This document shows positions 38,007-64,000 of a stretch of 64,000 nt of DNA, one piece after another. The stretch covers positions 1 through 64,000 of the forward strand of contig JAPHSS010000015.1 in assembly GCA_026195255.1 (NCBI GenBank). Direction: 5' to 3'. The number at the start of each line of letters is the position of its first letter. Position 1 is the first letter of the stretch. The translations under genes were made by a program, and so were the position numbers. Source of the DNA: Gammaproteobacteria bacterium (GTDB taxonomy: Bacteria > Pseudomonadota > Gammaproteobacteria > SZUA-229). Below the pieces are notes generated by a model. It had not been told where the DNA came from, did not search any database, and saw only the letters and a list, made by a program, of their open reading frames with translations.

Positions 38007-38034
38007 TTTTATAACTAATTTTAGTTGTTTATTG

Positions 38035-38063
38035 AAAAAAGGGGCTTTAAGCCCCTTTTTTTT
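38035..38063 (+). terminator. Rho-independent terminator of pnp
   Basis: A GGGGCTT/AAGCCCC stem flanked by six A before and eight T after, 28 bases after the pnp stop. Confidence 0.9.
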
Positions 38064-38424: not shown

Positions 38425-38952
38425 ATGATGCATAAAACTATATTAGTATTCTTGACAATAATGATTCTGAATTCATTCTCGCTCAATGCGGCAGATGTAA
38501 CTAAAGAGCAGATTAAAGGCCTTGATGAGCAGGTTCAGGATATTAAAACCGATGTGATTGATTTAACGGCGGACCTTCTTCAGCTGGAAGAAAAATTGCT
38601 ATTTCCATCGAATAGCCAATTTGCATTATTTGTTTCACTGGCGGATGTAGAAGATTTACGTCTCGATGCAATACAGGTCAAGCTTGAAAATAAAGTTTTG
38701 GCACATCATCTTTATACGTTCAGGGAATTAGAAGCCATGCAAAAGGGAGGCGTTCAAAAAATTTATACTGGAAACATAAAAACAGGCGAGCATAAACTGG
38801 TCATTAGTTATATCGCAAAACCCTCAAGTGGTGGTGAATTGAAACGCAGTGCCAGTTATACGCTCAAAAAGGGTGTGGGGCCAAAGTTTGTAGAAATAAA
38901 AATTGGTGGCCCGGATGCGGGTGATCAAGGTTTAGAGTTTAAGGACTGGTAA
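38425..38952 (+). CDS. Small exported protein, first gene of TPR/ExbBD operon
   Basis: 175 residues, function not recognised. A signal peptide (KTILVFLTIMILNSFSLNAA) is followed by a heptad-like coiled-coil segment (about residues 25-58). A compact domain rich in beta strands comes next, with charged C-terminal sequence ending GDQGLEFKDW. No lipobox Cys is present, so it should be periplasmic. It starts the operon that runs through TPR proteins to the ExbB/ExbD/TonB-like genes, 19 bases before the next gene. A structural partner of the TPR proteins is a guess from position only. Confidence 0.8.
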   Translation: MMHKTILVFLTIMILNSFSLNAADVTKEQIKGLDEQVQDIKTDVIDLTADLLQLEEKLLFPSNSQFALFVSLADVEDLRLDAIQVKLENKVLAHHLYTFRELEAMQKGGVQKIYTGNIKTGEHKLVISYIAKPSSGGELKRSASYTLKKGVGPKFVEIKIGGPDAGDQGLEFKDW

Positions 38953-38971
38953 TAACCGGAAATTTAATTCA

Positions 38972-40978
38972 ATGCTTCGTATATTAAAATTTATAGCTGT
39001 TTCATTGATTGCATTTAATGCGACAGCTGAAAACACCATTGATAAAGCACCTGTGCTTAAGGATATTTTCTATGGTGAATCGCTGTTTTATGCCTTTCAA
39101 GATAAACACTTCGATGCTATCAGTAAGCTTGACGCTGAGCTTGGGCAATTTTATGCGCTTGATAATCCATCATTAGATCCATTTAATCAGCATATAAATC
39201 ATGCTGAATTCTCAGTAGGTAGTTTTGAGCTTGCTTATCGAATGCATCAACGTGCGGGTAGAGCAATTAAATCTATCATGGAATCGAGCTTAAATCAGAA
39301 GATTCGAAATGAAGCAGCCTATCGATTAGCACAAATTTATTATAGAAAAAACCAGCCGGGCAATGCGTTAGACATCCTCGAAAAAATTCAGGGTGAAATG
39401 GCAGACGAGTTACGTGTAGATGAAATTCATTTAAGAGCACAGGTATATATATCTACGGGTAAATTTTCTGAAGCGATTGAGTTATTAAAATCTATTGAAA
39501 ATGAAGATAAATATAAGGGTTATATATTATATAACCTGGGTATAGCTTATATACAGAATGGTGATGAGAAAGAGGCAATTGAAGCACTGAGTAGATTAGG
39601 TGTCTTAAGTAGCAATGACCGGGGTATATTGGCATTAAAAGATAAAGCTAATTTAACACTCGCAAATCGAATGCTGGAAAAAGGTTCACCAGAATTAGCG
39701 AAAAAGTATTTTAGCCTGGTGAGATTAAACGGGCCTTTTGCAGACAGGGCTTTACTGGGTATGGGATGGGTGAATGTATCACTCGGGCAATTTAAAAAAG
39801 CGTTAGTACCATGGGCTATTTTACAGGAGCGTGAAATTACTAATGAATCTGTGCAGGAGTCCTTATTAGCTGTTCCATATGCTTATGGTCAATTAAACTA
39901 TTTTGGCCAGGCTGCATTGTCATATGGTAAGGCCATGGATAATTTTGGTGGCGAGATTGACAGGCTACAAACATCTATAAAAAGTGTAAGAGAAGGTAAG
40001 TTTCTAAATGCAGTGCTTGATAAGCAGGCAGAGCGAGATAAAAACTGGCTGCATAATTTAAGAGATTTACAGGAAACACCGGAAACCCGTTACATATTGT
40101 CTTTAATGGCCTCTAATGACTTTCAACAGTCTTTAAAAAATTACCAGGATCTTGCAGAGCTTAGAGTGCGATTATCTTACTGGCTGTCGTCACTTGATGT
40201 ATATGTAGAGATGATTGAAATTCGCCGTAAATATTATGAACCATTATTGCCCGTTGTTGAAAAACAGTTTAAAAAACTGGATGCCAGGATTCGTTTGCGG
40301 TTATCTCAGCGTGATCGCCTTGATCAACGTTTAAAGTCGTTAGCTATTGCCAGACGCCCGGAGTATCTGGCAACGGCTGAAGAGCGAGGAATACAGGATA
40401 AGCTCGGAAAAATTGAGTTGTATTTGTCGGCTAACCCACAACATTATACGGATGAAGTGCGTGCACGAATCTCAAGATTAAAAGGTGTCTTGCACTGGAA
40501 TATTAATAAGGCATATCACGAACGTTTAACTAATGCATATAAACAAATGCAAACACTTGATATTTATATCAACAAACTTAATGAAGCCTATCAGTCATTT
40601 GTTAGAACTCGTCAGGCAGCGACGCAAAGTTATGAAGGTTATGATATTCCAATTCGTCAACTTAAGACTAAAATTCAGGCAATTCAGTTAAAAGTTAATG
40701 GCGTAATGGCGCGACAGGGGCGATTAATTGAAACACTTGCGGTAAATGAACTGGAGCGGCGTCGCAATTTACTAGAAGAATATCAAATTAATGCACGTTT
40801 TGCTCTGGCTGAGAGTTATGACCGGGCCACTAAAAAACAGCAAAAAGCAGAACAGGAAAAGTTAATACAGGGTATTGAGGAAGATAAAGCTTTACAGCAA
40901 TCCACAGTTGATGAAGTTGATGCCGGGGATGCAGAAAACACTGAATCAGAAAAAGTTACTGAAGAGGTTATTCAGTAA
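38972..40978 (+). CDS. Periplasmic TPR and coiled-coil protein
   Basis: 668 residues with signal peptide LRILKFIAVSLIAFNATAEN. The N-terminal 330 residues form TPR-like helical pairs (for example EAAYRLAQIYYRKNQPGNALDILEKI and YILYNLGIAYIQNGDEKEAIEALSRLG). The C-terminal half is long helical coiled coil rich in Arg, Gln and Leu, ending in an acidic tail. TPR arrays act as protein-docking scaffolds, so a periplasmic adaptor for the downstream energised complex is plausible. Its TAA overlaps the ATG of the next gene by one base, which implies translational coupling. No enzymatic motif is seen. Confidence 0.85.
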   Translation: MLRILKFIAVSLIAFNATAENTIDKAPVLKDIFYGESLFYAFQDKHFDAISKLDAELGQFYALDNPSLDPFNQHINHAEFSVGSFELAYRMHQRAGRAIKSIMESSLNQKIRNEAAYRLAQIYYRKNQPGNALDILEKIQGEMADELRVDEIHLRAQVYISTGKFSEAIELLKSIENEDKYKGYILYNLGIAYIQNGDEKEAIEALSRLGVLSSNDRGILALKDKANLTLANRMLEKGSPELAKKYFSLVRLNGPFADRALLGMGWVNVSLGQFKKALVPWAILQEREITNESVQESLLAVPYAYGQLNYFGQAALSYGKAMDNFGGEIDRLQTSIKSVREGKFLNAVLDKQAERDKNWLHNLRDLQETPETRYILSLMASNDFQQSLKNYQDLAELRVRLSYWLSSLDVYVEMIEIRRKYYEPLLPVVEKQFKKLDARIRLRLSQRDRLDQRLKSLAIARRPEYLATAEERGIQDKLGKIELYLSANPQHYTDEVRARISRLKGVLHWNINKAYHERLTNAYKQMQTLDIYINKLNEAYQSFVRTRQAATQSYEGYDIPIRQLKTKIQAIQLKVNGVMARQGRLIETLAVNELERRRNLLEEYQINARFALAESYDRATKKQQKAEQEKLIQGIEEDKALQQSTVDEVDAGDAENTESEKVTEEVIQ

Positions 40979-43900
40979 TGTTTATTAATAGGCATAAAAC
41001 ATTTTTTATATTTGTCCTGACAACAGTGTTAGCAGTATCACTGGCTGGCTGTGTGAGTAGTGGGGACAAGCAGACATTAGCAAGTCTGGAAAATGTGGAA
41101 TTCGATTTAAAAGAAGCAGAAATCTCTGGCAGTCTTGATAAGGCAATGGAAAGTTATCAAAAATTTCTCGAAGAAACACCAGAGACAGCGATGACACCTG
41201 AAGCATTACGTCGTCTGGCTGATTTAAAAATTGAGAAAGAGTACGGTGTCTTAAGTGGCGGTGTGGATGTCGCAGCCAAGGCGACTGACATTGCGGGCCA
41301 ATCTGCAGCGCTAAGTACAACGGCAGATTCAACAGCTGCCAGTTTAGCAGCCAGTACAGCTGCGGCAGCAGGTACGGCAACGGCATTAATATCTGATGAT
41401 AAAGAAGAAATAAAAACTGCGGAAGTTCAGAGTAAAGCTGAATCAATAGCAAACGTTTCAGAGTCTGAAAAAGAATTTGAGAAACGAGCCACAAAAGAAA
41501 CAGATATTAAAAAAGATGCAAAAAAAGCTATTGTTACTGCTGATGCAGCAGTGGCTGATGATTTGGCTTCGGCAGGTGCAAAAGAAGCGATAGAGTTATA
41601 TAAAGGCTTGTTAGTTAAATACCCTCATTATGAACGTAATGACCAGGTGTTATATCAATTATCTCGTGCCTATGAAGAAGTTGGTGAAGTCGATAAAGCG
41701 ATGCTGGTATTGAATCGACTGGTCAAAGAATACCCTAATTCCAGACATATAGATGAGGCTCAATTCAGGCGCGCAGAATTTTTCTTTACACGTAAAAAAT
41801 ATCTGGATTCTGAGGAAGCATATCAGGCAGTTATTGATTTTGGTATAAGTTCGGCATTTTATGATCTTGCTTTATATAAACAGGGTTGGGCTTATTTTAA
41901 ACAGGATCTTTACGAAGAAGCTTTGCATGATTTTATAGGCTTACTTGATTATAAAATATCAATTGGTTATGACTTTGAGCAGATAACCAATAAAATTGAA
42001 CGAAAAAGAATTGAAGATACCTACCGGGTTATTAGTTTAAGTTTTTCGTATCTTGGCGGGCCGCAAGAAGTTGTTAAATATTTCGAGACGCATGGATCAA
42101 GGCAATATGAAGCCAGTATTTATAGTCACTTAGGTGAATACTATTTAACAAAACGTCGTTATGCCGATGCAGCTGGCGCATATAATTCCTATGTTGAAAG
42201 AAACCCTTTAAATAAAGTGTCACCGCATTTCCATATCAGGGTAATAGATATTTATTTGAAAGGTGGTTTTCCAAAACTGGTTATAGATTCTAAAAAGAAC
42301 TATGCTTCTACTTATGGTCTAAGGGCGAATTATTGGACATTTTTTGATATTAATTCTTATCCTGATGTTATTGTCTTTTTAAAGTCTAACCTTACTGACC
42401 TGGCTAATCATTATCATGCACAATATCAAAACAGACGTCTTAGAAAATTCAGGAAAGAAAATTTTGCAGAGTCTGCACGATGGTATCGTGAATTTCTTGA
42501 TTCATTCCCTGAAGACCAGCAGTCACCCGGGATAAATTTTCAGTTAGCTGAATTGTTGCTTGAAAACAAAGACTTCAGAGATGCAGCCTTAGAGTATGAG
42601 AGAACTTCATATAATTATGAAAAACATGAAAAATCAGCGGAAGCGGGTTACGCAGCTGTATTTTCATATCGTGAGTATTTAAAGAAATCAGACCAGTCTC
42701 AGAGAAATGTGATCAAGCATGAAATTATTCGCAGTTCATTAAAGTTTGGTGAGGCATATCCCAAACATAAAAAAGCCCCTGCTGTATTGGTAGCTGCAAC
42801 GGATGATTTATACGCGATAAGAGATTTCCCTATGGCTATTAAAATTGGCCGTAGCGTAATTGAAAAATATCCAAATATTGAAACTAAGTATATTCGTTCA
42901 TCATGGTTAATAGTGGCTCACTCTTCATTTGACCTCACATTGTTTAGTGAGGCAGAAGCAGCTTATAATCAGGTCTTAACCATAACAGCTAAAGACCATA
43001 AAGAGCGCAATAAGTTAATTGAGAATTTAGCAGCATCAATATATAAACAGGGCGAACAGGCGCGTAAGCTTCAAGACCACCGCACAGCTGCGAATCATTT
43101 TCTACGCATAGCAACCGCTGCACCTACTTCGAAAATAAGACCAACAGCAGAATATGATGCTGCTGCAGCGTTAATTAGTTTAAAAGACTGGTCTATGGCC
43201 TCAGAAGTATTGCAGGGCTTCCGCAAGCGTTATCCTAAAAACAAATTACAGCCTGAAGTAACAAAGAAACTTGCAATTGTATATAAAGAAGATGGAAAAC
43301 TGTTACTAGCTGCAGCTGAGTTTGAGCAAATTGAAAAAGAGACTAAAGATAAAGGCTTACGTCGTGAAGCACTACAGCAAGCCGCAGAGTTGTATGAAAA
43401 AGCGGGTGATAGAACTAAAGCACTAGATGTTTATGTGCGCTATGTATCATATTTTCCAAAACCTGTCGAAAATGCGCTTGAAATGCGAAATAATATTGCA
43501 AATATCTATAAGCTTAATAAAAGTAAGAAACTTTATATAAAACAGCTTCAATGGATTGTTGCTATAGATTTAAGAGCAGGAAAAGAGCGCACAGATAGAA
43601 CACGTTTTCTTGCGGCTAACGCATCACTTGTGTTAGCTGAGCCAGATATTAGACGTTTTAAACTGGTTGAGCTTAAAAAGCCATTTAAGAAAAATTTAAA
43701 TAAAAAGAAAAAACGCATGAAAAAGGCAATAGCTACTTTAACAAAGCTAGTTGATTATGAAGTGGGTATAGTGACTGCGGCAGCGACTTATGAAATTGCT
43801 GAAATATATTTTCATTTCAGTCGTGCTTTAATGAATTCAGAAAGGCCAACTAATTTAAATGAAATGCAACTAGAGCAATATGAGTTAGTCCTTGAAGAAC

Positions 43901-44229
43901 AAATATATCCATTTGAAGAAAAAGCGATTTCTGTGCATGAAAAAAATATGGAATTGCTGGATTTAGGCATATATAACGAGTGGATTGATAAAAGTATTGA
44001 TAAGCTGGCTGTTTTATTACCTGCAAGATATGCTAAACCAGAAGAAGCAGTACAGTATGTAGAAACTATATTACCCGTTGCATCTGAGCCTGATCCGGCT
44101 TCAATGCCAGAAAAAACGCCGCCGAATGAAGCGCCTGTAGATAAAGTGGAGAAACAAAGCAGCGTGCCGGCTGTTGAGATAATTAAAGATCAGGCTTTAA
44201 ATTATTATACCCATTGGATGGTTGCTTAA
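40978..44229 (+). CDS. Large TPR lipoprotein
   Basis: 1083 residues. A lipoprotein signal with lipobox LAGC puts the acylated Cys at 25; the residue after it is Val, so the outer membrane is the likely destination. An Ala/Ser/Thr/Lys-rich low-complexity stretch (about 85-200) leads into many TPR/Sel1-like helical repeats (for example YKGLLVKYPHYERNDQVLYQLSRAYEEVGEVDKAM), comparable to the TPR scaffolds of gliding and Tol-associated systems. The C-terminal 50 residues are Pro/Glu-rich. The next gene starts on the base after the stop codon. Confidence 0.87.
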   Translation: MFINRHKTFFIFVLTTVLAVSLAGCVSSGDKQTLASLENVEFDLKEAEISGSLDKAMESYQKFLEETPETAMTPEALRRLADLKIEKEYGVLSGGVDVAAKATDIAGQSAALSTTADSTAASLAASTAAAAGTATALISDDKEEIKTAEVQSKAESIANVSESEKEFEKRATKETDIKKDAKKAIVTADAAVADDLASAGAKEAIELYKGLLVKYPHYERNDQVLYQLSRAYEEVGEVDKAMLVLNRLVKEYPNSRHIDEAQFRRAEFFFTRKKYLDSEEAYQAVIDFGISSAFYDLALYKQGWAYFKQDLYEEALHDFIGLLDYKISIGYDFEQITNKIERKRIEDTYRVISLSFSYLGGPQEVVKYFETHGSRQYEASIYSHLGEYYLTKRRYADAAGAYNSYVERNPLNKVSPHFHIRVIDIYLKGGFPKLVIDSKKNYASTYGLRANYWTFFDINSYPDVIVFLKSNLTDLANHYHAQYQNRRLRKFRKENFAESARWYREFLDSFPEDQQSPGINFQLAELLLENKDFRDAALEYERTSYNYEKHEKSAEAGYAAVFSYREYLKKSDQSQRNVIKHEIIRSSLKFGEAYPKHKKAPAVLVAATDDLYAIRDFPMAIKIGRSVIEKYPNIETKYIRSSWLIVAHSSFDLTLFSEAEAAYNQVLTITAKDHKERNKLIENLAASIYKQGEQARKLQDHRTAANHFLRIATAAPTSKIRPTAEYDAAAALISLKDWSMASEVLQGFRKRYPKNKLQPEVTKKLAIVYKEDGKLLLAAAEFEQIEKETKDKGLRREALQQAAELYEKAGDRTKALDVYVRYVSYFPKPVENALEMRNNIANIYKLNKSKKLYIKQLQWIVAIDLRAGKERTDRTRFLAANASLVLAEPDIRRFKLVELKKPFKKNLNKKKKRMKKAIATLTKLVDYEVGIVTAAATYEIAEIYFHFSRALMNSERPTNLNEMQLEQYELVLEEQIYPFEEKAISVHEKNMELLDLGIYNEWIDKSIDKLAVLLPARYAKPEEAVQYVETILPVASEPDPASMPEKTPPNEAPVDKVEKQSSVPAVEIIKDQALNYYTHWMVA

Positions 44230-44817
44230 ATGGCTGTATTAAGAGTAATTGCAATTGCGCTTACGATTATAACGCAGGTGTCCTGCGTGATGGAATCGAC
44301 TAAACCGTCAATGATTGAAAGTAAGTCGAAATTCGAGAAAATAGAAATTGACTCAGATGTTGAGGATGATTTTAATGCAGCGCTTTCGCATTTAAAAGCT
44401 GAAGAATATGATGAAGCTATCCAGTTATTAGAAAAAGTAATTGCGGTTGAATACAGGGTGCCTGCACCTTTTATTAATTTGGGAATGGCCTACAGTAAAA
44501 AAGGTGACGATGTTAGTGCTGAAAAACATTTATTAAGCGCGGTTGAAGTAGAATTAACTAATCCTGTTGCGAATAATCAGCTTGGCTTATTGTATAGAAA
44601 AAAAGGCAGGTTTGATGACGCTAAAAAAGCATATACAAATGCTTTAACAGAATACCCTGATTATTTGCCTGTAGTTAAAAATCTGGGTATTCTTTGTGAA
44701 TTGTATATGCGTGATTTTCCTTGTGCTCTTAAGCAATACGAACATTATCTAAGTTTGCAGCCAGATGATAAGACAATGAAGATATGGATATCTGATCTTA
44801 GTCGACGGATTAAGTAG
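44230..44817 (+). CDS. Small TPR protein, possible lipoprotein
   Basis: 195 residues with a hydrophobic N terminus ending QVSC at residues 16-19. The -3 residue is Gln, so the lipobox is non-canonical and lipidation is uncertain. Three to four TPR units follow (DFNAALSHLKAEEYDEAIQLLEKVI, APFINLGMAYSKKGDDVSAEKHL, NNQLGLLYRKKGRFDDAKKAYTNAL), close to a PilF-like arrangement. It abuts the preceding TPR lipoprotein gene with no gap and lies six bases before the next. Confidence 0.85.
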   Translation: MAVLRVIAIALTIITQVSCVMESTKPSMIESKSKFEKIEIDSDVEDDFNAALSHLKAEEYDEAIQLLEKVIAVEYRVPAPFINLGMAYSKKGDDVSAEKHLLSAVEVELTNPVANNQLGLLYRKKGRFDDAKKAYTNALTEYPDYLPVVKNLGILCELYMRDFPCALKQYEHYLSLQPDDKTMKIWISDLSRRIK

Positions 44818-44823
44818 GGGGTT

Positions 44824-45138
44824 ATGTTGCGATATATAAAAACTATGGGTTTATTTCTGATTCTTGCGGTGAGTTTTTCATTTGCTTATGCAGAGGATAA
44901 ACCTAAAACGGGTAACAGTAAAAAAAGTGTAAAGAAAGACAATGAGGTTAAAGAGTTGTCTGGTATTTCCATTATAGGAAATAAAGAAGCGCCGAAGTCT
45001 CTTTACATTGTGCCATGGAAGAATTCTGAAGTTGGCGTAAGGTCAAGTTTAACATCTGGCTTGCTAGATGAATCAATGCGGCCTGTTGATAAAGAAGTGT
45101 TTTTACGTGAGCTTGATTTTTACGAATTAAGTCATTAA
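44824..45138 (+). CDS. Small exported protein of unknown function
   Basis: 104 residues with signal peptide ending FSFAYA, then a Lys-rich linker. A C-terminal block of about 55 residues begins ISIIGNKEAPKSLYIVPWK, with no Cys and no TM segment. I do not recognise a named family. It sits between the TPR genes and the ExbB-like gene, preceded by GGGGG as ribosome binding site. The conserved-looking core suggests a periplasmic accessory of the complex, by position only. Confidence 0.75.
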   Translation: MLRYIKTMGLFLILAVSFSFAYAEDKPKTGNSKKSVKKDNEVKELSGISIIGNKEAPKSLYIVPWKNSEVGVRSSLTSGLLDESMRPVDKEVFLRELDFYELSH

Positions 45139-45183
45139 ATAAATTTAACGGTAGTGCAATTTCATAGTTTATATTAAGAAATT

Positions 45184-45211
45184 TTGATAATGCGGTGCTA
45201 AACTCTATAAA
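45184..45211 (+). promoter_or_regulatory. Candidate internal promoter before the ExbB-like gene
   Basis: TTGATA (45184-45189), a 16-nt spacer, then TATAAA (45206-45211), in the only sizeable gap (121 bp) of the operon. It could drive the channel/TonB genes separately from the TPR genes. Confidence 0.45.
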
Positions 45212-45259
45212 ATTCAACATGTTTTTAATTAAATATGTAAACACAACGAGGGAAATATA

Positions 45260-45919
45260 ATGGAATTCATCGAAGCTCTGGTGCGATTTTTCCAAACAGG
45301 GGGTGCATTTATGTACCCGATTTTGATTGTATTTGCGATTGGTGCAGCCATAGCTATTGAGCGCTTTATTAAGTTAGGCAATGTTCGCCGAGCTAATCGA
45401 AAGGTATGGGATGAAGTACATCCACTGTTAGAAGAAGGTGATTTTGATCAAGCCAGAGAGTTAATTGCAGATGATGGCTCAACAATTGCCAGTTTATTAA
45501 AAATGGGGCTTGCACGACAAGGTTCAGTAAGAAGGCGTGATGACATAGAAATTGCTATGGAAGAAAGTATGATGGAAATTATTCCTCAACTTGAAAAACG
45601 TACACCTTATGTTGCACTGTTCTCAAATATATCTACATTACTGGGTCTGTTGGGTACCATTATGGGTTTGATCGAAGCCTTTACAGCTGTTGCTAATGCA
45701 AACCCTGCTGAAAAAGCTGACTTGTTGTCCGCAAGTATATCTGTAGCAATGAATACAACAGCATTTGGTTTGATGGCGGGTATACCTTTGCTTATTACTC
45801 ATGCATTATTAACAGATAAAACCGGGCAGATTGTAGATAGCCTGGAAATGGTTTCGGTTAAAACACTGAATATCATATCTGAATTTGCTAAACGTCAAGC
45901 TGCTCTGGCTGCAAAATAA
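45260..45919 (+). CDS. MotA/TolQ/ExbB family proton-channel protein
   Basis: 219 residues with three TM segments: about 15-36, 118-142 and 160-182. It is the ExbB/TolQ-type pentamer subunit that couples proton flow to an ExbD/TonB-type partner. The TM2 motif LLGLLGTIMGLIEAF has the conserved Thr (T133, E. coli ExbB T148), and TM3 has T167 (T181). Where ExbB has Glu176 and TolQ also has Glu, my hand alignment of SVAMNTTAFGLMAGIP places Val162. GAGGG precedes the ATG, and the stop overlaps the next start (TAATG). Two ExbD genes follow. Confidence 0.93.
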   Translation: MEFIEALVRFFQTGGAFMYPILIVFAIGAAIAIERFIKLGNVRRANRKVWDEVHPLLEEGDFDQARELIADDGSTIASLLKMGLARQGSVRRRDDIEIAMEESMMEIIPQLEKRTPYVALFSNISTLLGLLGTIMGLIEAFTAVANANPAEKADLLSASISVAMNTTAFGLMAGIPLLITHALLTDKTGQIVDSLEMVSVKTLNIISEFAKRQAALAAK

Positions 45920-46410
45920 TGGCTAGAAAAAGGCGTTATCGCCGCACAGACAAAGATGTACCAGAAATGGATATTACTACCTTTCTTAATTTAATGGTGG
46001 TGCTGGTTCCGTTTCTGTTAATAACGGCTGTGTTTTCACGAGTAACTATTCTTGAGCTAAATTTACCAACTTCCAGCGGTTCAAGTGCACCGACTAAATT
46101 AAAACTTAATATCGAAGTTATTGTTCGTTCAAAAGGCCTTGAAATAGGTAATGGCCGACGTGTTGTTGCACGTTTTCCGAAAGTTGGAGAAGAATATGAC
46201 TTCGCAAGTTTGTCTAAACATTTGTTAGAGATTAAAAAGAATTATCCTGATAAAACTGATGCTACTGTATTGATGGAGCCAGATATACAATACGACTTAC
46301 TGGTTCATGTAATGGATGCGGTGAGAATTGCAGAGGTGTCTCAAAGCGCAGATGGTATATATGATAAGGTCGCTTTGTTTCCAGATATTTCAATTGGTGA
46401 TGCGCCATGA
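45919..46410 (+). CDS. ExbD/TolR family protein with Asn at the proton-site position
   Basis: 163 residues: a short basic cytoplasmic N terminus, one TM helix (about 22-41) and a periplasmic ExbD-like domain. Aligned with E. coli ExbD, the motif MDITTFLNLMVVLVP puts Asn24 (codon AAT, 45988-45990) where Asp25 normally is; Asp18 lies just before the helix. In the family that Asp is essential for coupling, so this copy may be a non-protonatable partner of the second ExbD. It overlaps the ExbB-like gene by one base and the next gene by four (ATGA). Confidence 0.9.
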   Translation: MARKRRYRRTDKDVPEMDITTFLNLMVVLVPFLLITAVFSRVTILELNLPTSSGSSAPTKLKLNIEVIVRSKGLEIGNGRRVVARFPKVGEEYDFASLSKHLLEIKKNYPDKTDATVLMEPDIQYDLLVHVMDAVRIAEVSQSADGIYDKVALFPDISIGDAP

Positions 46411-46910
46411 GACAAAACTCACGTCGTATGAATCGTATGAGCCGCTCCAAGAAAAAGCCGCAAGGTTTAAACCTTGTTTCCTTGATGGACGTATTTACAA
46501 TTCTGGTTTTTTTTCTGTTAGTTAATTCCTCATCGACAGAAGTGCTTGAGCCACCTAAAACACTTAAATTACCTGATTCGATTGTAGAAAAGAAACCTCG
46601 AGAAACTGTAGTTGTTTTAGTGACAAGTGAATCAATACTTGTAATGGGCGAAGCTGTTATTTCTACTGCCGATGCTCTGGCAGTCAAACAGTCTGTTATT
46701 CCAGAGGTGCAGGAGCGATTAAGGCAACAGCGCGAAAATGTTATTGGTATTAGTACTAAAACAGTTGCCGAAAGTGAGGAAGTCACGGTACTCGGTGATA
46801 AGACTATTCCATTTAAGTTATTGAAAAAAGTTATGTCTAGTTGTACCGCAGCGGGTTATGGGAAAATTTCTCTCGCTGTTATTCAAAAAGCATCACAAAC
46901 AGACTCATAA
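46407..46910 (+). CDS. ExbD/TolR family protein with canonical Asp
   Basis: 167 residues: a very basic N terminus (RRMNRMSRSKKK), one TM helix (about 23-42) and a periplasmic domain. The helix motif GLNLVSLMDVFTILVFFLL keeps the proton-carrying Asp at 28 (codon GAC, 46488-46490). The periplasmic part (about 50-167) is larger than in minimal ExbD. It differs clearly from the first copy, so the two are divergent paralogues and not a recent duplication. The start overlaps the stop of the first ExbD gene. Confidence 0.92.
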   Translation: MRQNSRRMNRMSRSKKKPQGLNLVSLMDVFTILVFFLLVNSSSTEVLEPPKTLKLPDSIVEKKPRETVVVLVTSESILVMGEAVISTADALAVKQSVIPEVQERLRQQRENVIGISTKTVAESEEVTVLGDKTIPFKLLKKVMSSCTAAGYGKISLAVIQKASQTDS

Positions 46911-46922
46911 GGTTTTATAACG

Positions 46923-48278
46923 TTGGTTGATCAAGACGTCTCCAGAGAACAGGAAAAAATCAATCTTAAGATTGATGAAGCGCAGCACCGGATAGCAGAT
47001 CTGGAGAATCAACTGCGCCTTGTTGATATTGAGCTTGAGGAATTCTTTCAGGACCGCCAGCAGTTTATTTTATTAAGTGAAATTAGTGATCGACTGGATA
47101 AGCTGAATAAGCTGGGTGGAGCCTGTCTCTTCTGGGGAGAGGACTGTGATTTAGATAAGTCGATGGCTCATTATAATCGTGTACATAACATGGTTATTAA
47201 TTACGATGAAAAAGTTAAAGCGGTACAAAAACGTCGTGAATTAATTAAAGAAGATATCCAAAGTGTCATTGCACAAATTAATATCCTGCATGAAGAAATT
47301 CTTGTCGTACAGGAGCGTGCAGAAGAGCGTTTAACAGAGTTTGTTATCGAACGCGAAATGACGATACACCCTTACCGTCCAATGATAATGCCATGGACAA
47401 CTCAGGGTGAAGATGAGAAACGTTTCAGACGTATTTTATTAATCACGCTACTGCTTACAATTGTAATGGGTTATTTGATACCGCTCTGGGACTTACCAGT
47501 ACAGACACGTGATCAGCTAACCGAAGTACCTGAGCGATTAGCGAAGCTGGTTATTAAAAAAGCACCGCCACCTCCGCCACCAAAAGTGCAGCCCAAGTTA
47601 GAAGAGAAGAAAGATAAAAAAGCCAGGAAAGATGTGCCAAAACCTAAAACTGAGAAAGCGAAAAAAGCACGTAAAGTCGCTGAGACTGCAGGTTTACTTG
47701 CCTTTAAAGATAACTTCGCCGAGTTAATGGATAGCTCAATTGATCAGAAGTTAGGTTCACAGGCTCGTTTAAGCAATAAAGGTCAGAAGTCGCGTAAGAT
47801 TTCTCGTTCATTAGTAACAGCTCAAGCCACCAGTGCATCTGGCGGTATAAGTACTTCATCACTTAGCCGTAATACGGGTAGTGGAGGCAAGAGTACGGGT
47901 GGAGTGGAATTCTCCAGGGTAGAAAGTGCTATTGGTGGAGACTTCTTTGGAGAAGAGCGACCATTAAGTGATGGGCCTGGTCCATCCAGAACGGATGAAG
48001 AAATTCAAATTGTTTTCGATCGATACAAAGCCGCATTATATAGAATATATAATCGTGAGTTACGTAAAAACCCGACTCTACAAGGTAAGATTGTGCTGAA
48101 GTTAACGATTGAACCGAACGGAAGTGTTTCGGCCTGTAGTATTGAGTCAACGGATATGGACTCAAAAGACCTGGAGAAGAAAATTGTAGAACGTGTTAAG
48201 AAGTTTAACTTTGGTGCTAAAGAAGATGTACCAGCAATTACCATTTTATATCCGATAGATTTCTTACCTGCAACATAA
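46923..48278 (+). CDS. TonB/AgmX-like energy-transducing protein with cytoplasmic coiled coil
   Basis: 451 residues from a TTG start (no upstream ATG in frame; TAAGG is about 10 bases before). About 165 residues of N-terminal helical coiled coil are followed by one TM helix at 171-189. A Pro/Lys-rich spacer with KAPPPPPPKVQPK (213-225) comes next, then a Ser/Gly-rich linker (285-330). The C-terminal domain (about 357-451) resembles TonB/AgmX-PglI C termini, with a Cys in SVSACSIEST. Unlike ordinary TonB, the N-terminal cytoplasmic part is long. The ExbB-ExbD-ExbD-TonB-like order predicts a PMF-powered rod reaching the outer membrane. Confidence 0.87.
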   Translation: MVDQDVSREQEKINLKIDEAQHRIADLENQLRLVDIELEEFFQDRQQFILLSEISDRLDKLNKLGGACLFWGEDCDLDKSMAHYNRVHNMVINYDEKVKAVQKRRELIKEDIQSVIAQINILHEEILVVQERAEERLTEFVIEREMTIHPYRPMIMPWTTQGEDEKRFRRILLITLLLTIVMGYLIPLWDLPVQTRDQLTEVPERLAKLVIKKAPPPPPPKVQPKLEEKKDKKARKDVPKPKTEKAKKARKVAETAGLLAFKDNFAELMDSSIDQKLGSQARLSNKGQKSRKISRSLVTAQATSASGGISTSSLSRNTGSGGKSTGGVEFSRVESAIGGDFFGEERPLSDGPGPSRTDEEIQIVFDRYKAALYRIYNRELRKNPTLQGKIVLKLTIEPNGSVSACSIESTDMDSKDLEKKIVERVKKFNFGAKEDVPAITILYPIDFLPAT

Positions 48279-48300
48279 TCTTGATGCAGTAATTTGCCTC

Positions 48301-48340
48301 TCCTCTATGTATTAAGCGTGTTTGCTTAATACATAGAGGA
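48301..48340 (+). terminator. Long perfect stem-loop at end of envelope operon
   Basis: A 17-bp perfect stem (48301-48317 with 48324-48340) around the loop GTGTTT, 22 bases after the stop. The stem is AT-rich and the following T tract is weak, so this could be a terminator or an mRNA-stabilising hairpin. Confidence 0.6.
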
Positions 48341-48812
48341 GGTTTAATGGTGTTATTGTCTACCAGGCATTCCCTGAGTTTTCACAATCATGACTTGTTG
48401 CACAAATCGGCTTTAATTTTAAAACTCTTTGCGATGTTTTCTAGAGTGCTTTACGGGTGTTATTTGAGTTATTAATGTCGTTATATGGCGGTTAACCTTT
48501 GCATCAGGCCTACACAATCAAGATAGAAGCTTTTTAATCGGACATTTGTTCCCCTTAGGCCAAAAAGTACTGTTTTTTAAGTCGTATACAGGGAAAATAC
48601 CTTATTGTATCCAAATAAAACTGGTTTATAAGTTGTTTGTGTACTAAAATCCCTAAAAAACAATAACTTATGAAGGTTACTTAAAATAAATATTAGAATT
48701 TGATTTTGAGGGTGTTTTCACAATATCAGGGAGTATTGGCATGTATAATTGGCAATGTAAGTAATTGATAAAAGAGGAAAAACCGGATTTGGCCAATATA
48801 AAAGAAGAATAG
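48341..48812. other. Intergenic region before the giant gene
   Basis: About 470 bp without a credible gene on either strand. A consensus TATAAT stands at 48744-48749 without a good -35 hexamer. No riboswitch that I know, repeat or tRNA is recognised. Its length suggests separate control of the giant gene. Confidence 0.5.
48744..48749 (+). promoter_or_regulatory. Candidate -10 box of the giant gene
   Basis: A perfect TATAAT preceded directly by TG, 63 bp before the ATG. The -35 region at the right spacing is poor, so activator dependence is possible. Confidence 0.35.
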
Positions 48813-51800
48813 ATGTTATTTACAGATACGAGACTAATTTTAAAATCTGTGCTGATTACATGTGTAATTATCAGTGCGGTTTTTTTATTGTCTGTAAAAA
48901 ATGTATATGCTGTTGCCAATATAACGGCTTCCACTTCTTTTGTATCTGCAGATGCCGCTCGTGCCAATGCATCAATGGATGCCGCAGGTACCTGGAATGG
49001 TTCAGCTGATGTTACTAACTCAACTGGTGATACTTTTACTCTAAGTATCGAAAATACTGCGGGTGGCGCGGCCGTCGACGACTCGGCCTTCGATATTGAT
49101 TTAAGTGCCAATGTACCTGCAGGTTTCAGGCTGCCAACATCACCAATGGCTGTAAGTGTCACAGACTCCCCTGGAACCTGTTCAAACATTAATGGCGTTA
49201 CTGCAACTCAACCAGGTGGTGCTGGTAACCCTGTTAATTTTAATATTGCTAACAATACTAATATTGCCCCGGGCTGTACGTATAATTTTATACTTGGTTT
49301 AACAACCGATGACTCAGCACCGTTCGCAGCATCAGGTTTGCAATCAGTTGGTTTTGCGTTTACATATAATTCAATAAATAATGTGGGTGGTTCGCAGGTG
49401 AATGTACCTGCCACTCAAAATATTCAGGTTAATCCAGGAAATATTGCTCTCACTAAAACGTCACTTACTCCGATTGCTGCTAATGGACAATTAGTCGATT
49501 TTAGAGTCGATTTATTAAGTGCGGATACTGGCGGTGTTTTTGATGTTGTATTCACGGATACTTTAAGTGCTAACTTAAATAACTTAAGTTTTATTTCATT
49601 AGCTGCCTTTGATAATACGACCAATAACCCGGTCGCCATTCCGCCAAATACACCGGGGCCTTTGTCTAACCAGATAACCTTTAGTTATATACCTTCAAAT
49701 GTAAGAATCGAAATTGGTGTACGTTCAACAGCAACCGTGAACCCGACTGATACAAATTGCCCGGATATGACAAATGATGGTACGGCAGTTGAACGTACCG
49801 GTATCAGTGCGAGCGATTTTGCGACGGTCGATTTTAATTTGGCGAACTCGCTGCAATTAACTCATGATTTAGTAAATAGTTTTTGTGAGTTATGCGGTGT
49901 TGGAACTGTAAGGCTTACTGCACAAAATGCAGGGGGTATTTCTTTAGTTAATATTAATCTTACAGAAGATCTTCTGGCATCCGGTTTAACTTATGTAGCG
50001 GGCAGTACACAAATTTCTATTGATGGGGCAGCGCCAATACCTGCGGGCAATCCTATTGTTTCTGGTGCCAATAATCAGATACTCAACTGGACACCCGCAC
50101 AAATCCCACAACTTGGACAATTAGATAGCCCATTTGCTGTGCCTGCTCCACCTAACCCTATAAGTATTGAATTTATTTTTCAGGTTGAACGTGCGCCAGG
50201 CTTTAATGAAGAGGGTTTAAATTTTGCAGTTCGAAACATACAGCCAAGTGCTACTTACGACCTGATCTGTGGTGGCATTTCACAAAATACAACTGGTGCA
50301 TTAGTTGAGTTACCCATTAGACAGCCAGTACCGCAAGTGGTTAAACAGGGTAGAAATATTGATGCGGCTCAGGGTGCGGGAGCTTATGCAGATATAGTTT
50401 ATGGGCATATAGAAGATAGTGTTATTTGGCGAGTTGAGGTGCAAAACACCGGACAGGCAGATTTAGAGGACTTGCTTATTGATGACACAATCGGAGGTAA
50501 CTTTGATATTAACTGGATTTGTAATTCTGAAGCAACGGCAACTACTGCAGCAGCAGCTACAGGTGGCCCTGCTCCCGCAGGTTGTGTGAGTGCGGGTGGT
50601 GGTGTTCGCACGAGTGTTTTAAATTTTGCTGTTGATGATCCTTTTGGTAATCCGGGTAATGATGAAAATGGTGCTTTTGTTGATGTAACAGCGGCAGCTA
50701 GTGGCTTTATTTATTACGTAGGTCGTATTCGGGCGTCTTGTACCAATCAAACTAACAACGCAGATATTGAATGGGGTTGTGAAGCAGACTCACCTCCAGA
50801 AGGTGGTTTGGTTACACCCGCGACGAGTGGAGGTGTTACACCTGGATTCAGTATTGCAAGTTTTGCAGACTTAAGTGCGCAGGTGGTTACCGGTGGTTTA
50901 GATATTGCGCAGGCTGTTACCGGTGTAAATGTAGCGCAGCCAGTGGGTAGTTCAGGTTTGGTTACCATTACAGTCACTAACTTAACCGGTGCCACGGTAC
51001 GTAATCTGGATCTAACTGATACCTTGCCGGCTGAATATGTTATTGACCCAACCTTTGTACCGACAGCTGTCGTTACGCCTTTTTATGGTAATAATTATTT
51101 AGGCATGATAGACACCATAAACTGGGATAATGAGGATGTTGGTAATCCCTTAAATAATGTTGCACCACATTTCGTTTTAACTAGTAGTACTAGCCGACCC
51201 GAAACAACTATAGCTGGAGATGATGTCAACTTACTACGTCATGGTGATGTATTAACAATTCAATTTAGAATTGTTGTGATAGATCCGCTGCGTTACGACC
51301 GGGTTGCTGATCTTGATGTTACAACAGAAAATCAGGGTGACTTAACTGATCCCGATAGTGATTTCACAGTAAATAATAATGTTCATATTAATTTTGATAA
51401 TATTTGTGGGCAAACAGGTTTAACTGTTCCTGACAGTAATCAAAATTTTCCAGTAGATATAGAAGATCTTGACGTTAGTACTTCGGACGCATTATTTATT
51501 CTTACCAATGATCCGGGTACACCATTAGACCTGAACACTCTGGTTACTAATAATGGTGGTCATGATGCGGATAATTATACAGTATATATAACTTTTGGGC
51601 AGGCGATGACGGTGCAAACTGCACCGGCGGGTTGTGCTGTTACAACTAATCCTCCACCACACCCTCACTGGAATCAGCCCACACCAATACCTGCAACGGC
51701 AGCGGTCTATGCCTGTAACCGTCCGCCGATTGCTCCGGGAGTAACTGACACAATTACATTTTCTGTTATAAAAGCCGCTAGTCCAGCGGTAGATGATGAT

Positions 51801-54800
51801 TTAACTTTTAGAGCAGATGTTATTGGTGAAGTGACGTTAAGCGATGGTACACCACTAACATTTCCAGCACCTGCAAGTATTGCCAATACAACGCCTAATT
51901 TGCAGCTTGCAAACAATTACACGTTAGATGCAGTACGTGCACGAGTCATGGGTTTTAATTTAACTAAAAGTGCCTGGTATTGCACAGAAAGCGGGGCAGT
52001 AGAACCGGCTCCTTCTGTGCCGCCGCCCGCGACACCTGCTGAATTAAATATACAAATTGGTGAAGATTGTAATTACTTTATTGAGTCTGGCGGCTGGTTT
52101 GGTTTCTTAACACCGGGTTTTACATTAATTGCAGTTGAAAATGTTGCCGTAACCGATGATCTGCCTGATGGTCAAGGTTTTATTCCTTTTGGTGGTACGC
52201 CTTATAATTTTACTAATACAACAAATATTTCATTAACCGGCGCCAATGGTGGTGCTGGAACAACGCCACTAGTTGAGACCGATATCACATGGAATTTTAA
52301 TGCGACAGGTAGTGGGATCGTAATTAAAGATGAATTTTTCCGGGTCGACTTTAAGACCCGACTATTGAATGACATAGTTGACCGTGATTATGCGGTTGCA
52401 GGTGTAGGGCCAAACTTACATTCTAACCTGAGCTTAAATACTGCACGAACTTCTTTCGATGCAATTTTTAATAGTACAAACGGTGATGTCACTATAAATG
52501 TAAATGATGGTGCCGGCATTCCGGGTTATCCCATTCCTGCTGTTCGCCAGGTGACATTAACAGAAATAGAACCGAATATAATTGTCACTAAAGAAGTTTG
52601 TAATGAATCACGTAATGGAGTCGGAATCGGCTGTAGTCGTTTTGTTCCTGTTATAAATGCTACTGATGCGTTGGATGCGGGTGACTCTGATAATAATTAT
52701 ATTTACAGGGTGACCCTAAGAAATGAAGCTGCTTCAGGTGGAGTTACACGTGCCCCTGCATTTAACGTATCAATAACTGATGTACTGGATAGTAGTGATT
52801 TAATGCTCATTGCACCAGGGGGTGCGGCACCATTTGATAATGATGGACTCGACAATGATGGTGATGGTTTTATTGATACACCTGCATTTGGGGGTAATGA
52901 TATCGATGGAGAGTTCTTTAGCCTAACTGAAAATGTGGCCAATGGTGGTACAGCTGCCACATTTGTTATTTCTCACCAGCACAGTAACGCATTAGATCGT
53001 ATTGACCCGGACGATGGGCTTGGTGGTAATGATGTTGTTTTTTATTATCGAATAGATCCAGATCAAGCAGTTGCACCATTAGAAGTTCTTGATAATACAG
53101 TTACCACAACTTATGACAGTCTTGATGGTGATTTTGGAAATCAGAATACACCTCAGTTAACCAATGCTGAAAACACAGCTCCTAATAATTCAGGTCGTGC
53201 AAGAATTTATACAGCTGTTGATGCTGCATCATCAATTCAAATGTTGCCATTACAAACACAGCGAAAAGCAATAATTCAGGTTTCAAATTCTGTCCCGGGT
53301 GGACCACCACAGGAAGTGGTTGTTGGTGAAGAAATAAAATATGAGCTACATACATTAATTCCAATTTCAAATCTCAGAAATTTTGTTATTCGTGATGAAT
53401 TACCACCAGGTATTCGTTGCATGGATACACCGGTATTACAGCTCAATAGTAATAATAGTAGTGGTACAGGCCGAAATTATGCAGCAGCTGGTTTTGATCC
53501 AGGTGGAAATATTACACCTACATGTACCAGTACAGGTACCAATGATGTGGTTGAATGGGATCTGGGTAACCAGGAGCTAACAACAGGAACGCCCGGTGCT
53601 TTATTTGATTTTGAAATTGATTTTACTGCACGGGTTGAAAATACAGACCAGGTACAGGAGGCCTGTAATATTAGAAATGGTGGTAGCACGGGTAATGCAG
53701 CCGTTCCAGCGCCAGCTGCTTGTAGCACTGATCCAACCCTTGCACGAGCAACTTATACGAATGAAGTCGGAGACACCATAACACTCAATTATGAGAGTGT
53801 AGATGTAGTTGTGCGTGAGCCAGTTATAGCAGTTACAAAATCATTCCTGCCTGTAACTGATGCAGATGCAGATGATATTTTAGATGTCATAGTCACAGCT
53901 ACTAATAATGGCTCAGCTACAGCTTATAACCTACAGGTGCTAGATGACTTAACGGGTGCCAATATGACCTTTTTGAATGTAGTTGGGGGCACTGATCCAC
54001 CAGATAATATTGATGTCCTCACACTGGGTGCAAATCAACCTATATTTAGCTGGAATTCGGTTAATCCCGATTTTGCTATTGCACCTGCTGAAGTAAAAAC
54101 ATTTACATTTAGAGTACAGGTTGATGACATTGTTCAGCCACATGAAATTTTAGACAATACAATAGAAGCACGTTGGACTTCATTGCCTGATGTGAATACA
54201 GCATTACCTCAAATTGCATCACCCTTTACGCCACGAACTTTAGCAATAGACGGTGATGAGGAAGGCATGCGAAACGGACAGTTAACCGGTGTCGGTGTTG
54301 CTTCAGCAAATCCGCCGAATGACTATAACGACACAGCAACTGCGTCCGTTGTGGTGCCTGAGTTAAGCATTGTAAAAGATGAATTAAACCCAACTATTGT
54401 TCCGCCCGCGTTGCCTGTAACGCCTGAAATTGGTGCGCAAAAACAATTTAGAATTACGGTTTCATTGCCGGAAGGTGTTACAAATAATTTAACCGTTGTA
54501 GATGATCTGGCGGCAGCAGCAGAAAGTTATTTTATAGAAAATAATGTCGATTTTGATATTACCTATACCTTTAATGACATTTTCAGTATTAATGGCACAG
54601 ATATTACTGCCATGGCACCTGCAGATGTTGAAGCGTTATTTATATCTTTCCCTGCTGATAATGGTTCAGGATCGACTGATGCAACCTGGAATATTGGTGT
54701 AGTCGATACGCTTTCTGAAAATGATGCAGCAACAACTGCTGTTAATCCACAAATTATTATTACCTATTTCGCTCGTATTAATAATGATACAGATACGGAT

Positions 54801-57800
54801 GCAGGAGATACATTACAAAACGCTGCAACATTAAACTATAGCAACGGTGAAGATGCTACGGTTGAAATAAGAACCGATGATACTCCGCTTATTACAGTTA
54901 CTGAGCCGCTCCTTACGTTAACTAAAGTGGTGAGTAATGTAACTCAACCTGGACTCGACCCAGATGGTGGAGATGTCCTTGAGTATGTGATTACCATTGA
55001 TAATACGGGTGATGCAACCGCTTACGATACAAATATTGTAGATACAATTCCTGCCGGTGTTACCTTAGTACCCGCTGTAACCTTTACACCTACAGCAACA
55101 ATTAATGCAGGTGCAGTTGCTGGCTTTATCAGTGACCCAAGCGGCGCTCCTAATGGACCGCTTATCTGGGGTCGAGGTAACCTGGACGAAAATTTAGATA
55201 TACCTGCGGTGGGTCGTTTAATTTTAACCTATCGAGTTACTGTTGATGATGCAGTAGAACCCTTACAGTCACTAGATAACAGTGTGGTTATTGACTGGAC
55301 ATCACTCAATGGTTCGTCTGCACAAATAGATGCTAGAGAAAGAACCGGTGGAGCAGATTGTAGTGCAATTGTGTTACCCAATGATTACTGTGCTGGTCCA
55401 GTGGTTGCTACGCAGACGGTTTCAAATTTAAACAATATAACTAAAACCTATAACAGTGATACCTTTACACCGTTTAATGATTCACAGTTAAGAATTGGCG
55501 ATCAGGTACAGTACACGCTGACTCTGAACTTCCAGGAAGGTACAACACCCAATACGTCAATCGTTGATACCATTCCTAATGGAATGGAGTTTGTGGGTGT
55601 GGTTTCAGTTAATGCGAACGTTGGTCCGGCTCCATTTACCAATGTTGCGCCTTTTACACATGCGCCTATAGCAACGCCAGTTGTTACAACAGGTGTGGGT
55701 GCCAACACGATTACCTGGACTCTGGGTGATGTTGTTAATGTGGCAGATAATAATCCTGCTAATAATAATTTTGTTATTGTTTATACCGCTCAGGTTGTTA
55801 ACGATGAATTACCTATTCCTCAAAATACCAGCACTGCATTATTAAACAGCGTTGATTTTAATTTTGATGATGTAAATAATGCGCCTGTTACCCAGATAGA
55901 CTCAGAAACAATTACAGCGTTAGAGCCACAAATATTACTAAGTGATATTTCGAAAGTGCGCCGTAATGGAATATTAAGTGGTTCTCCAGTTACAGCAGGG
56001 CCTTCTGCGGATGCCGGTGGGCTTGGCGATATTATGGATTTTGAATTACGTGCCTGTAATTCTGGTTTAGCACCTGCATATGATTTAATAATTGAAGATG
56101 TGCTTTCAACACAAATGAATGAAACCACTATCCGAGCACCTGGAGGTGCATTGCCATCGGTGACAGATCCATTAGTTATTTTAAATGGTGTTGCGGCAAC
56201 TGCAGGCGTTGAATATGTATATACACCGCCAGCAGGTCCCGCAGGGACAATGAGGTTTACTTTCAATGACGCGGGCAATCCATTATTGCCCGGTCAATGT
56301 GCTGTTGTTCAGCTTAATATTGATAACAATGTAGTTGGTGTTAATCAATCGTGGGATAACAGTTTTCAGGTAGTTGAGTATCATTCATTAGATAATTCAG
56401 CACCAGATGCAGATGTTAATGCAGCAGAGCGTGAAACTTATAATACTTTAATTGGCCCCGTATTATTTAACATGAATACGGTTGCACCTATTTACCCGCC
56501 CACCAAAACTTTAGTGAGCCCACTTGCCCCAGCTGAGGCGACGATAGGCGAGTTAGTGACTTATCAGGTACTGGTTCCAAACAATGTTATGACCGGAACA
56601 TTATTTGATTTGGCTTTGACAGACACAATGTCTACGAGCCTGACTTATGTCAGTTCTTCTGTTGATACATCAGCAGCTAATGCCTATAACGGAACGATTA
56701 GCGATACAGGTTCAATCAACAATCAGGTTAATATTGTTTTAGATAATGACTTATTAGGGGGTGAACAGGCAACAATTAATATCGTTGCTAGGGTGACTAA
56801 TAATGCATCAACTAATAATGCGACTGCAGCGTTTGGAAATACTGTTAATTATAGTTTTGCAGCAACTTCCGGTGGTTCACCAATTATTGGTGGCGGAGAT
56901 GCAACCGATCCACTAAATGATATTTCTATTATAGAACCTGACCTGGTTTTACAAAGTAAAACTGTAGCGAATATAACACAGCCAGGTAATCCTCCAGATG
57001 CGGGTGATATTTTACGATATACATTAACAATTAATGCATCAGGTGGTGCACTGTTTAGCGATGCCTTTGATGTAAGCATTATTGATACTTTAAGTTTGGG
57101 GCTGGTTTATAGCGGTAACTCTACTATCAGTGCAGGTGTTGGTACGATTAGCAACCCAGGCACAGTTGGTGATGGTGTATCAGCTACACAGGTAATGACC
57201 TGGGATTTAACCAATGGTAGTAATATCGATATACCAGAGGGCACTGCCGGAGTTACGATCACTTATGATGTGTTAGTACTTGATACTGTTTTAGCAAATC
57301 AGGATTTAACCAACTCAGCGGTTATTCAGTGGACTAGTTTAAATGGTGTAGATGCAAATGAACGTGATGGTTCAGGTGGTATAAATGACTATGTGAATGG
57401 TCCGCAAACAACAACTGTTACAACTACAGATAATAATAGTGTAAGTAAGACTCGATTAAGTGATACATCACCTGCACTAAATGCAGCTAACGATGTGCGC
57501 ATTGGCGACATTGTTGATTATCAAATTTCATTAAGCTTGCAGGAAGGCACAAGTAATTCTGTCGTTTTAAGTGATGTATTACCACAGGGTTTACAGTATG
57601 AGGGTATCGTCAGTATCAATGCGGATACAGCTTCTCCCTATGTAAATGTTGCGCCTTTTACTCATACGGATATTTTAACTGCAAGTGCCGTGGTGGTTGG
57701 AGACCCATTAACGGGGCCTAGCACTGTGACATGGACATTGGGTGATATCACCAATGCGGGAGCTAATGATGGTAATAATGATTTTGTTATTATTTACCGC

Positions 57801-63440: not shown

Positions 63441-64000
63441 ACTTTCCCTTAATATGAGAAACCTGCTTTGTGCCTGCGTCTTTGTTAATTCAACTGCGTA
63501 TGCAGAAACTAGCTGGCAAGATTTAATGGACTTTAATCAAAGTCCCGAAGGGCATATTGAATCGCCAGCTATTACTCTTGAGTCACATGATATAGGTGAG
63601 AATACGGAGCAGCACTTACCTCCATCAGCGGTATTTAATTTATGGATTCAGGATGAAACATTCTTTAGACCAAAAGAAGAAGACAGGGTTGAGTTACAGA
63701 AGGTTTTGCAAAAAGATGCTGAAACTTTCAAGCTTGAAAATGCGGTAAAACCAATACCTTTCAGTTCTGGGCAGGAAGTTATACCGGAGCAGTTTGTTAC
63801 TGAATTAAAACAGTTGCTCGATACCATGAAAAATCGTGCAAACGTACGGGTTCATTTTATAGGGCATAGTGATAACGATGCCTTAGGCGCTGCTTCAAAA
63901 GCAAAATATGGTGATAACATTGGTTTATCCCGTGCCCGTGCGGAAACCACGGCTGAATTTTTTCAACGAGTTTTAGATTTGCCGCCTGAATCGGTTTCAT
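63433..64000 (+). CDS. OmpA-family protein, 3' end outside the window
   Basis: 189 codons are visible, from an ATG that overlaps the end of the giant gene by 8 bases. A signal peptide ends TAYA at residue 24. An OmpA-like peptidoglycan-associated domain starts at about residue 107 (PIPFSSGQEVIPEQF). It carries the GHSD motif with Asp147 and LSRARA at 165-170, the residues that bind diaminopimelate in OmpA/Pal. Whether a barrel or more domains follow cannot be seen. Coupled translation suggests it is the partner or anchor of the giant repeat protein. Confidence 0.85.
   Translation, partial: MNKLSLNMRNLLCACVFVNSTAYAETSWQDLMDFNQSPEGHIESPAITLESHDIGENTEQHLPPSAVFNLWIQDETFFRPKEEDRVELQKVLQKDAETFKLENAVKPIPFSSGQEVIPEQFVTELKQLLDTMKNRANVRVHFIGHSDNDALGAASKAKYGDNIGLSRARAETTAEFFQRVLDLPPESVS

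Follow-up and report, generated by a model that had tools for sequence, protein, structure and literature searches.

Within the window, a 64,000-nucleotide stretch of DNA from a Gammaproteobacteria bacterium of the GTDB lineage SZUA-229 (assembly GCA_026195255.1, contig JAPHSS010000015.1, positions 1 to 64,000, forward strand), an operon of nine genes (P1–P9, 38425–48278) is followed by a gene for a giant DUF11 repeat protein and a gene for a large outer-membrane protein (OMP). The favoured reading is that the eleven genes encode a machine powered by the proton-motive force (PMF) for the export or assembly of a giant surface fibre, with the motor acting on the fibre/OMP pair; we judge the case for this reading to be about evenly balanced. 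In broader terms, the nine-gene motor probably supplies the power for export, assembly or movement of the fibre. The parts, several of which contain tetratricopeptide repeats (TPR), are listed below by position in the window.

38034–38062, + strand: intrinsic terminator after pnp, a 13-bp stem followed by a T-rich tail; upstream border of the operon
38425–38952, + strand: P1, 175-aa exported protein of no family, with a signal peptide, a short coiled coil and a C-terminal half rich in beta structure
38972–40978, + strand: P2, 668-aa exported TPR protein (Pfam/NCBIfam TPR matches), GltC-like by size and position
40978–44229, + strand: P3, 1083-aa TPR lipoprotein with YbgF/BamD/PorW-type TPR matches, GltD-like by size and position
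44230–44817, + strand: P4, 195-aa TPR lipoprotein, GltE-like; TPR matches, lipobox QVSC
44824–45138, + strand: P5, 104-aa small exported protein of no family, its position kept across related loci
45260–45919, + strand: P6, MotA/TolQ/ExbB channel subunit, AglR-like (Pfam MotA_ExbB, E=7e-24)
45919–46410, + strand: P7, ExbD/TolR-type axle subunit in which Asn takes the place of ExbD Asp25 (Pfam ExbD, E=5e-16)
46407–46910, + strand: P8, ExbD/TolR-type axle subunit with the Asp kept (Pfam ExbD, E=4e-14)
46923–48278, + strand: P9, transducer, GltG-like (NF033768, AgmX/PglI C-terminal domain, 69 bits against a cut-off of 40)
48300–48341, no strand assigned: perfect 18-bp inverted repeat, loop of 6 bases, in the P9–DUF11 intergenic region; no T-run, not scored as a terminator
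48813–63440, + strand: giant 4875-aa exported DUF11/isopeptide-repeat protein, the proposed cargo fibre; SdrD B-like domain and conserved C-terminal domain
63433–64000, + strand: start of the OMP, ~1714 aa with three OmpA domains and a large beta-barrel; runs on to contig position 68577, outside the window

The association of motor and fibre/barrel genes was assessed in 80 named loci carrying P2 (the query family, at 39–95% identity), with open reading frames (ORFs) labelled in each; the 62 related loci with a readable flank form the base of the partner-gene count. The gene for the DUF11 giant and/or the ~1700-aa OMP adjoins the nine genes in 60 of these 62 loci. The nine genes themselves keep one order throughout; with the partners, the gammaproteobacterial types have P1-P9-DUF11(-OMP), and Geobacter, Desulfuromonadales and Desulfobacterales have DUF11-OMP-P1-P9. 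One exception, L105, has immunoglobulin-like repeats in the DUF11/OMP place, with the OMP present in the same genome, and the other, L069, has a tandem operon at the flank. Whole-genome searches found a full-length OMP in 27 of 28 operon-carrying genomes, and a phylum survey found it in 3 of 398 genomes, namely the window's own and two more, the same three that match P2 strongly. P3 and OMP distances correlate with r=0.93 over 23 genomes, a value to which the shared ancestry of the hosts contributes and which none of 2000 permutations reached. Moreover, the ATG of the OMP gene at 63433 lies inside the 3' end of the DUF11 gene, which ends at 63440. Because of these counts, the two gene orders, the correlation and the overlapping start, the motor is linked here to the fibre/barrel pair. 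That unrelated envelope genes cluster here by chance or through co-regulation only, as an intergenic hairpin and a 534-bp gap between the two halves might suggest, can hardly be credited in view of the two different conserved orders and the near-perfect co-occurrence across classes. Chance linkage of the operon with the fibre and OMP genes was rejected on co-occurrence.

The operon itself comprises nine co-directional ORFs on the + strand (175, 668, 1083, 195, 104, 219, 163, 167 and 451 aa), all present and in the order that the original prediction, made from this DNA alone, had given; neighbouring genes abut or overlap except across a 121-bp gap at 45139–45259. Three terminator-like sites were found against 0.1 expected, one of them the strong terminator that follows pnp, and the operon start is therefore placed 3' of pnp. 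The inverted repeat downstream of P9 is a possible terminator or attenuator, and Rfam identified no RNA elements in the region. The order and content of P1–P9 recur in tens of genomes of several classes and are therefore more than a chance arrangement.

Pfam and NCBIfam assign three TPR proteins, one MotA/ExbB protein, two ExbD proteins and one AgmX/PglI C-terminal domain to the operon, in agreement with the predicted ExbB-like channel, pair of ExbD proteins and TonB/AgmX-like rod; P1 and P5 have no family match in either database, as had been foreseen for the two small exported proteins. The prediction of three exported TPR proteins also held, although it had named just the 1083-aa protein as a lipoprotein, and P4 is a second predicted one. 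The P3 lipobox is present in 63 of 68 homologues and a lipobox-like sequence in 33 of 48 homologues of P4. The motif LDEQVQ-IK-DVL---LEEKLLYPSNTQ of P1 is kept across 53 aligned sequences. The nearest solved relatives of P6 are the E. coli ExbB and TolQ structures. P9 consists of a cytoplasmic N-terminal region with a conserved LFW motif, one transmembrane (TM) helix, a proline-rich linker and the AgmX/PglI domain. Its best equivalog is GltG, at E=1e-15, below the cut-off of that model and with the C-terminal part alone matched. Together these assignments support a trans-envelope PMF motor of the ExbBD/TolQR type with an Agl/Glt-type TPR scaffold. The system had also been called complete, which does not stand: the DUF11 giant, within the window, and the OMP were missed, and the system extends past 48278.

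The DUF11 giant contains DUF11 and isopeptide-type repeats, and in a fold search one domain resembled the SdrD B fold, with Z 10.5 to Staphylococcus aureus SdrD. A protein of this length would be far too long for the periplasm. Its last 260 residues are 57–65% identical across classes, and its C-terminus is predicted to fold as a beta-alpha-beta-alpha-beta domain with a predicted local distance difference test score (pLDDT) near 90. Our guess is that this is an OmpA domain. The likeness was seen by eye, and a canonical-looking OmpA motif is C-terminal in three motor-less partners; profile comparison gave no significant match, and fold searches matched the SdrD B part alone. The predicted model of the OMP has a mean pLDDT of 53, about 60–85 in the barrel part, and about 32–34 strands in the better part; Foldseek and VIA-align matched it to many outer-membrane barrels with Z about 13–14. 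In Pfam the barrel has only weak generic barrel matches and no Plug domain match. The sequences thus show the parts list, the conserved linkage, the co-occurrence, an Asn/Asp division within the motor axle and the barrel and adhesin-like folds.

MotA/ExbB and ExbD proteins form a PMF-driven motor of 5:2 stoichiometry, and TonB-like proteins carry force across the periplasm. In the ExbBD-type motor family the proton carrier is ExbD Asp25. P8 has Asp at this position in all 46 homologues, whereas P7 has Asn in 38 of 40 homologues of the window's subtype and in 9 of 10 others; the residues were placed by alignment to solved ExbD, with weak scores and a helix that aligns gap-free. Three homologues carry Asp in both axle proteins, so the Asp-to-Asn change is not universal. 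The motor axle is therefore probably asymmetric. P7 and P8 presumably form a heterodimer, in which case the motor would have one proton site rather than two. P6 has Val where ExbB and TolQ have the TM3 Glu (SISVAMNTTAFGL versus GIAEALLATAIGL), conserved in the homologues shown, which on alignment is a second departure in the proton path. The M. xanthus AglRQS motor differs from the P7/P8 axle, as its AglQ and AglS are both described with a conserved TM Asp (PMC9389320).

In the proposed mechanism, a surface machine of eleven genes would have two halves, P1–P9 for power and scaffold and the DUF11 giant with the OMP. P6 would form the inner-membrane channel ring and one P7 with one P8 its axle, the proton-binding Asp being on P8 only. 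The TM helix of P9 would sit beside the motor, with the proline-rich linker and AgmX/PglI domain spanning the periplasm. The TPR lipoproteins P3 and P4, together with the exported TPR protein P2, would bridge to the OMP, whose OmpA domains would hold the peptidoglycan, and the motor would work on the OMP barrel so that the giant fibre is exported, extended or assembled on the cell surface. The stoichiometry, the contacts, the direction of work and the export role in this scheme are those that we infer.

Several observations weigh against this scheme. The barrel model is of modest confidence, so that pore size and strand number (about 32–34) are estimates, and fold searches with it gave generic outer-membrane barrels only. 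With a hairpin and 534 bp between P9 and the DUF11 gene, the two halves may also be transcribed as units of their own. Finally, fibre/barrel pairs occur without a motor, so that display need not require one; this weakens the export role and favours a role after export, in movement, tension or assembly. A shorter OMP without OmpA repeats is found in many operon-less genomes, where in most of the regions fetched its gene directly adjoins one for a giant repeat protein, and the fibre/barrel pair is therefore a two-gene surface module. Examples are L126–L141, motor-less pairs from many proteobacterial genomes in which a giant repeat protein accompanies a barrel protein of 1100–1430 aa without a Pfam family. 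The motor and the OmpA repeats thus look like a power module added to the fibre/barrel pair. A second operon subtype has a shorter P9 (about 315 aa) without the N-terminal cytoplasmic region, and no fibre/barrel genes. Since the motor-less pairs do not have the OmpA repeats and the short-subtype operons do not have the fibre/barrel genes, the pairing is specific to the window's subtype. At L180, L181 and L186 the short subtype is flanked by recurring secreted proteins with CxxCH motifs, one with a laminin-G domain, which suggests a different cargo.

The motor-less pairs also bear on the main rival account, which we consider rather unlikely; in it the fibre is exported otherwise, by the barrel alone or by another route, and the task of the motor is to move it along the surface or put it under tension, in gliding, attachment or retraction. 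This account agrees with the finding that OMPs with three OmpA domains are those found with the motor. It has analogies in GldLM with SprB and in the related Agl-Glt and Agl-Nfs machines, which move adhesion complexes and spore polymer, respectively (PMC3169522, PMC3858216). However, the 2011 authors judged the core alone an unlikely driver of motility (PMC3169522), and three peptidoglycan-binding OmpA-type domains on the OMP argue for a fixed rather than a travelling complex. Of export, surface-protein handling and motility, all on offer in the original prediction, the second is the one to which the partner genes point; the operon may or may not serve motility.

The P6–P9 proteins share channel and axle families with ExbBD-TonB and TolQRA, and P9 has a TonB-like C-terminal domain, but their scores fall far below the equivalog cut-offs (TolQ 54 bits against 221; ExbB and ExbD also below in NCBIfam), the two ExbD proteins are unlike each other, and the operon includes no receptor, TolB or Pal; Pfam found no match to the TolB, Pal or TolA families within it. 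The genome has a separate TolQ-TolR-TolB set on contig 17, and elsewhere a separate ExbBD set and 11 Plug-domain receptors, the receptors all on other contigs and none in the window. The Tol-Pal and Ton systems are thus separate from this operon, and it had been correctly noted that no TonB-dependent receptor lies in the window. The operon is neither a Tol-Pal nor a siderophore TonB system, either of which would have refuted the original prediction. A Tol-Pal-like envelope-integrity device, with OmpA-domain proteins placed on the peptidoglycan by the motor and the giant protein serving as a structural coat, would account for the TolQ/TolR-like motor, the YbgF/CpoB- and BamD-like TPR matches and the three OmpA domains. 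It is nonetheless improbable given the genome's own Tol set, the unmatched TolB, Pal and TolA, and a patchy distribution (a few of 398 genomes) that fits an accessory function. Import, with P6–P9 opening the giant barrel in TonB fashion for uptake of substrates, large or insoluble, that the fibre has caught, follows ExbB-ExbD-TonB-like logic, and several carriers (Alcanivorax, Aestuariicella and Geobacter relatives) presumably live on insoluble substrates. We regard it as highly improbable, as the OMP is without a Plug match in Pfam, P9 is below the TonB_C cut-off, the homologue alignment shows no TonB/TolA-type conserved His in its TM helix, and the genome has its own ExbBD set and receptors.

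The nine-gene core is already known and matches the AglRQS plus GltC/D/E/G 'core complex' of 2011: seven genes (aglR, Q, S and gltC, D, E, G) and one extra gene in a single cluster in Gammaproteobacteria and Geobacter, of unknown function (Luciano et al. 2011, PMC3169522). For the same core, Wartel et al. 2013 (PMC3858216) proposed the role of a basal transport machinery that stands alone. The system had been called poorly described, which holds for its function but not for its core. Shared with this Agl/Glt Group B core are one TolQ-like, two TolR-like and three exported TPR proteins and a GltG-like AgmX/PglI transducer in one cluster. The AglR-type (TolQ/ExbB) gene and the two AglQ/AglS-type (TolR/ExbD) genes stand together at the locus and in relatives, the TPR genes are conserved along with the channel genes, so that the original prediction passes the refuting test set for it, and the clustering of all genes in one locus, common to Geobacter and Gammaproteobacteria, was confirmed. 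Geobacter relatives carry the operon with P2 about 46–50% identical over nearly the whole protein, which ties the window's operon to the 2011 core. The likeness of P2–P4 to GltC/D/E, as judged by the published table and by NCBIfam, lies in size and TPR content; the sizes given there are 673 aa for GltC, 1191 aa for GltD, 162 and 194 aa for the TolR-like proteins and a longer 471 aa for GltE (PMC3169522), and the GltE model of NCBIfam scores far below cut-off. The present operon differs in that P7 is without the proton-carrying Asp and in its tie to the giant DUF11 fibre and the OmpA-barrel OMP, neither mentioned in the accessible text of PMC3169522; the 'additional gene' of that paper could be P1, P5 or the OMP.

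With the M. xanthus Agl-Glt gliding and Agl-Nfs sporulation machines the operon shares the motor type, the TPR/transducer logic and cargo-dependent specialisation. It differs in its outer-membrane partners, and classification of the operon's own contents revealed no Group A protein, GltJ and GltI included. GltG of the gliding machine has a cytoplasmic FHA domain, for which P9 has no Pfam match.

Type IX secretion with SprB gliding (GldLM, SprA, SprE, SprB) combines a 5:2-type motor, a TPR lipoprotein, a very large barrel and a giant repeat surface protein, a layout analogous to that of P1–P9 with the fibre and the OMP. However, no Gld, Spr or Por sequence family was matched beyond generic TPR similarity to PorW/SprE, nor was a type IX C-terminal signal, and kinship of the OMP barrel with SprA was not seen in a profile search of solved structures, Foldseek or VIA-align with a model of modest confidence. 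A bolder reading, which we put at rather less than even, is of an undescribed PMF-powered surface-fibre secretion/assembly system of Proteobacteria and Desulfobacterota, in which an Agl/Glt-type motor whose axle is asymmetric by nature, with a single Asp, drives a giant DUF11 fibre out, for export or extension, through a very large single-chain barrel of the outer membrane; it would match type IX secretion in function but be built from unrelated outer-membrane parts.

Two further modules resembling P2-P3-P4-P5 but without motor genes lie in the same genome (L175 on contig 67; L185 on contig 30, 112001–125315), so one motor may serve more than one scaffold, as AglRQS does for Glt and Nfs. A second AglR-like/two-ExbD/short-P9 motor (L189, contig 30, 43001–60000), whose first ExbD has Asn in place of Asp, adjoins TssM(IcmF), TagF and a protein kinase, all of the type VI secretion kind.

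What appears to be new is the partner genes, which with the core make up the eleven-gene form with its OmpA barrel, and the axle with a single Asp. They were not found in the open-access papers searched, where absence is not proof, and searches there for DUF11 and an OmpA barrel with TolQ/TPR or Geobacter returned nothing on this system. The core, regarded as the ancestor of the gliding and spore-coat machines of myxobacteria, has been without a known function since 2011, and its near-constant partners here suggest a candidate job, the handling of a giant surface fibre. The question is testable in cultured hosts (Geomonas, Citrifermentans, Geotalea, Alcanivorax and Aestuariicella). The natural Asn/Asp axle, in which one of two proton sites would have been lost by evolution, offers a ready test of how 5:2 motors step. 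If the proposed role is true, type IX secretion would be joined by a second kind of motor-powered surface system with a giant barrel.

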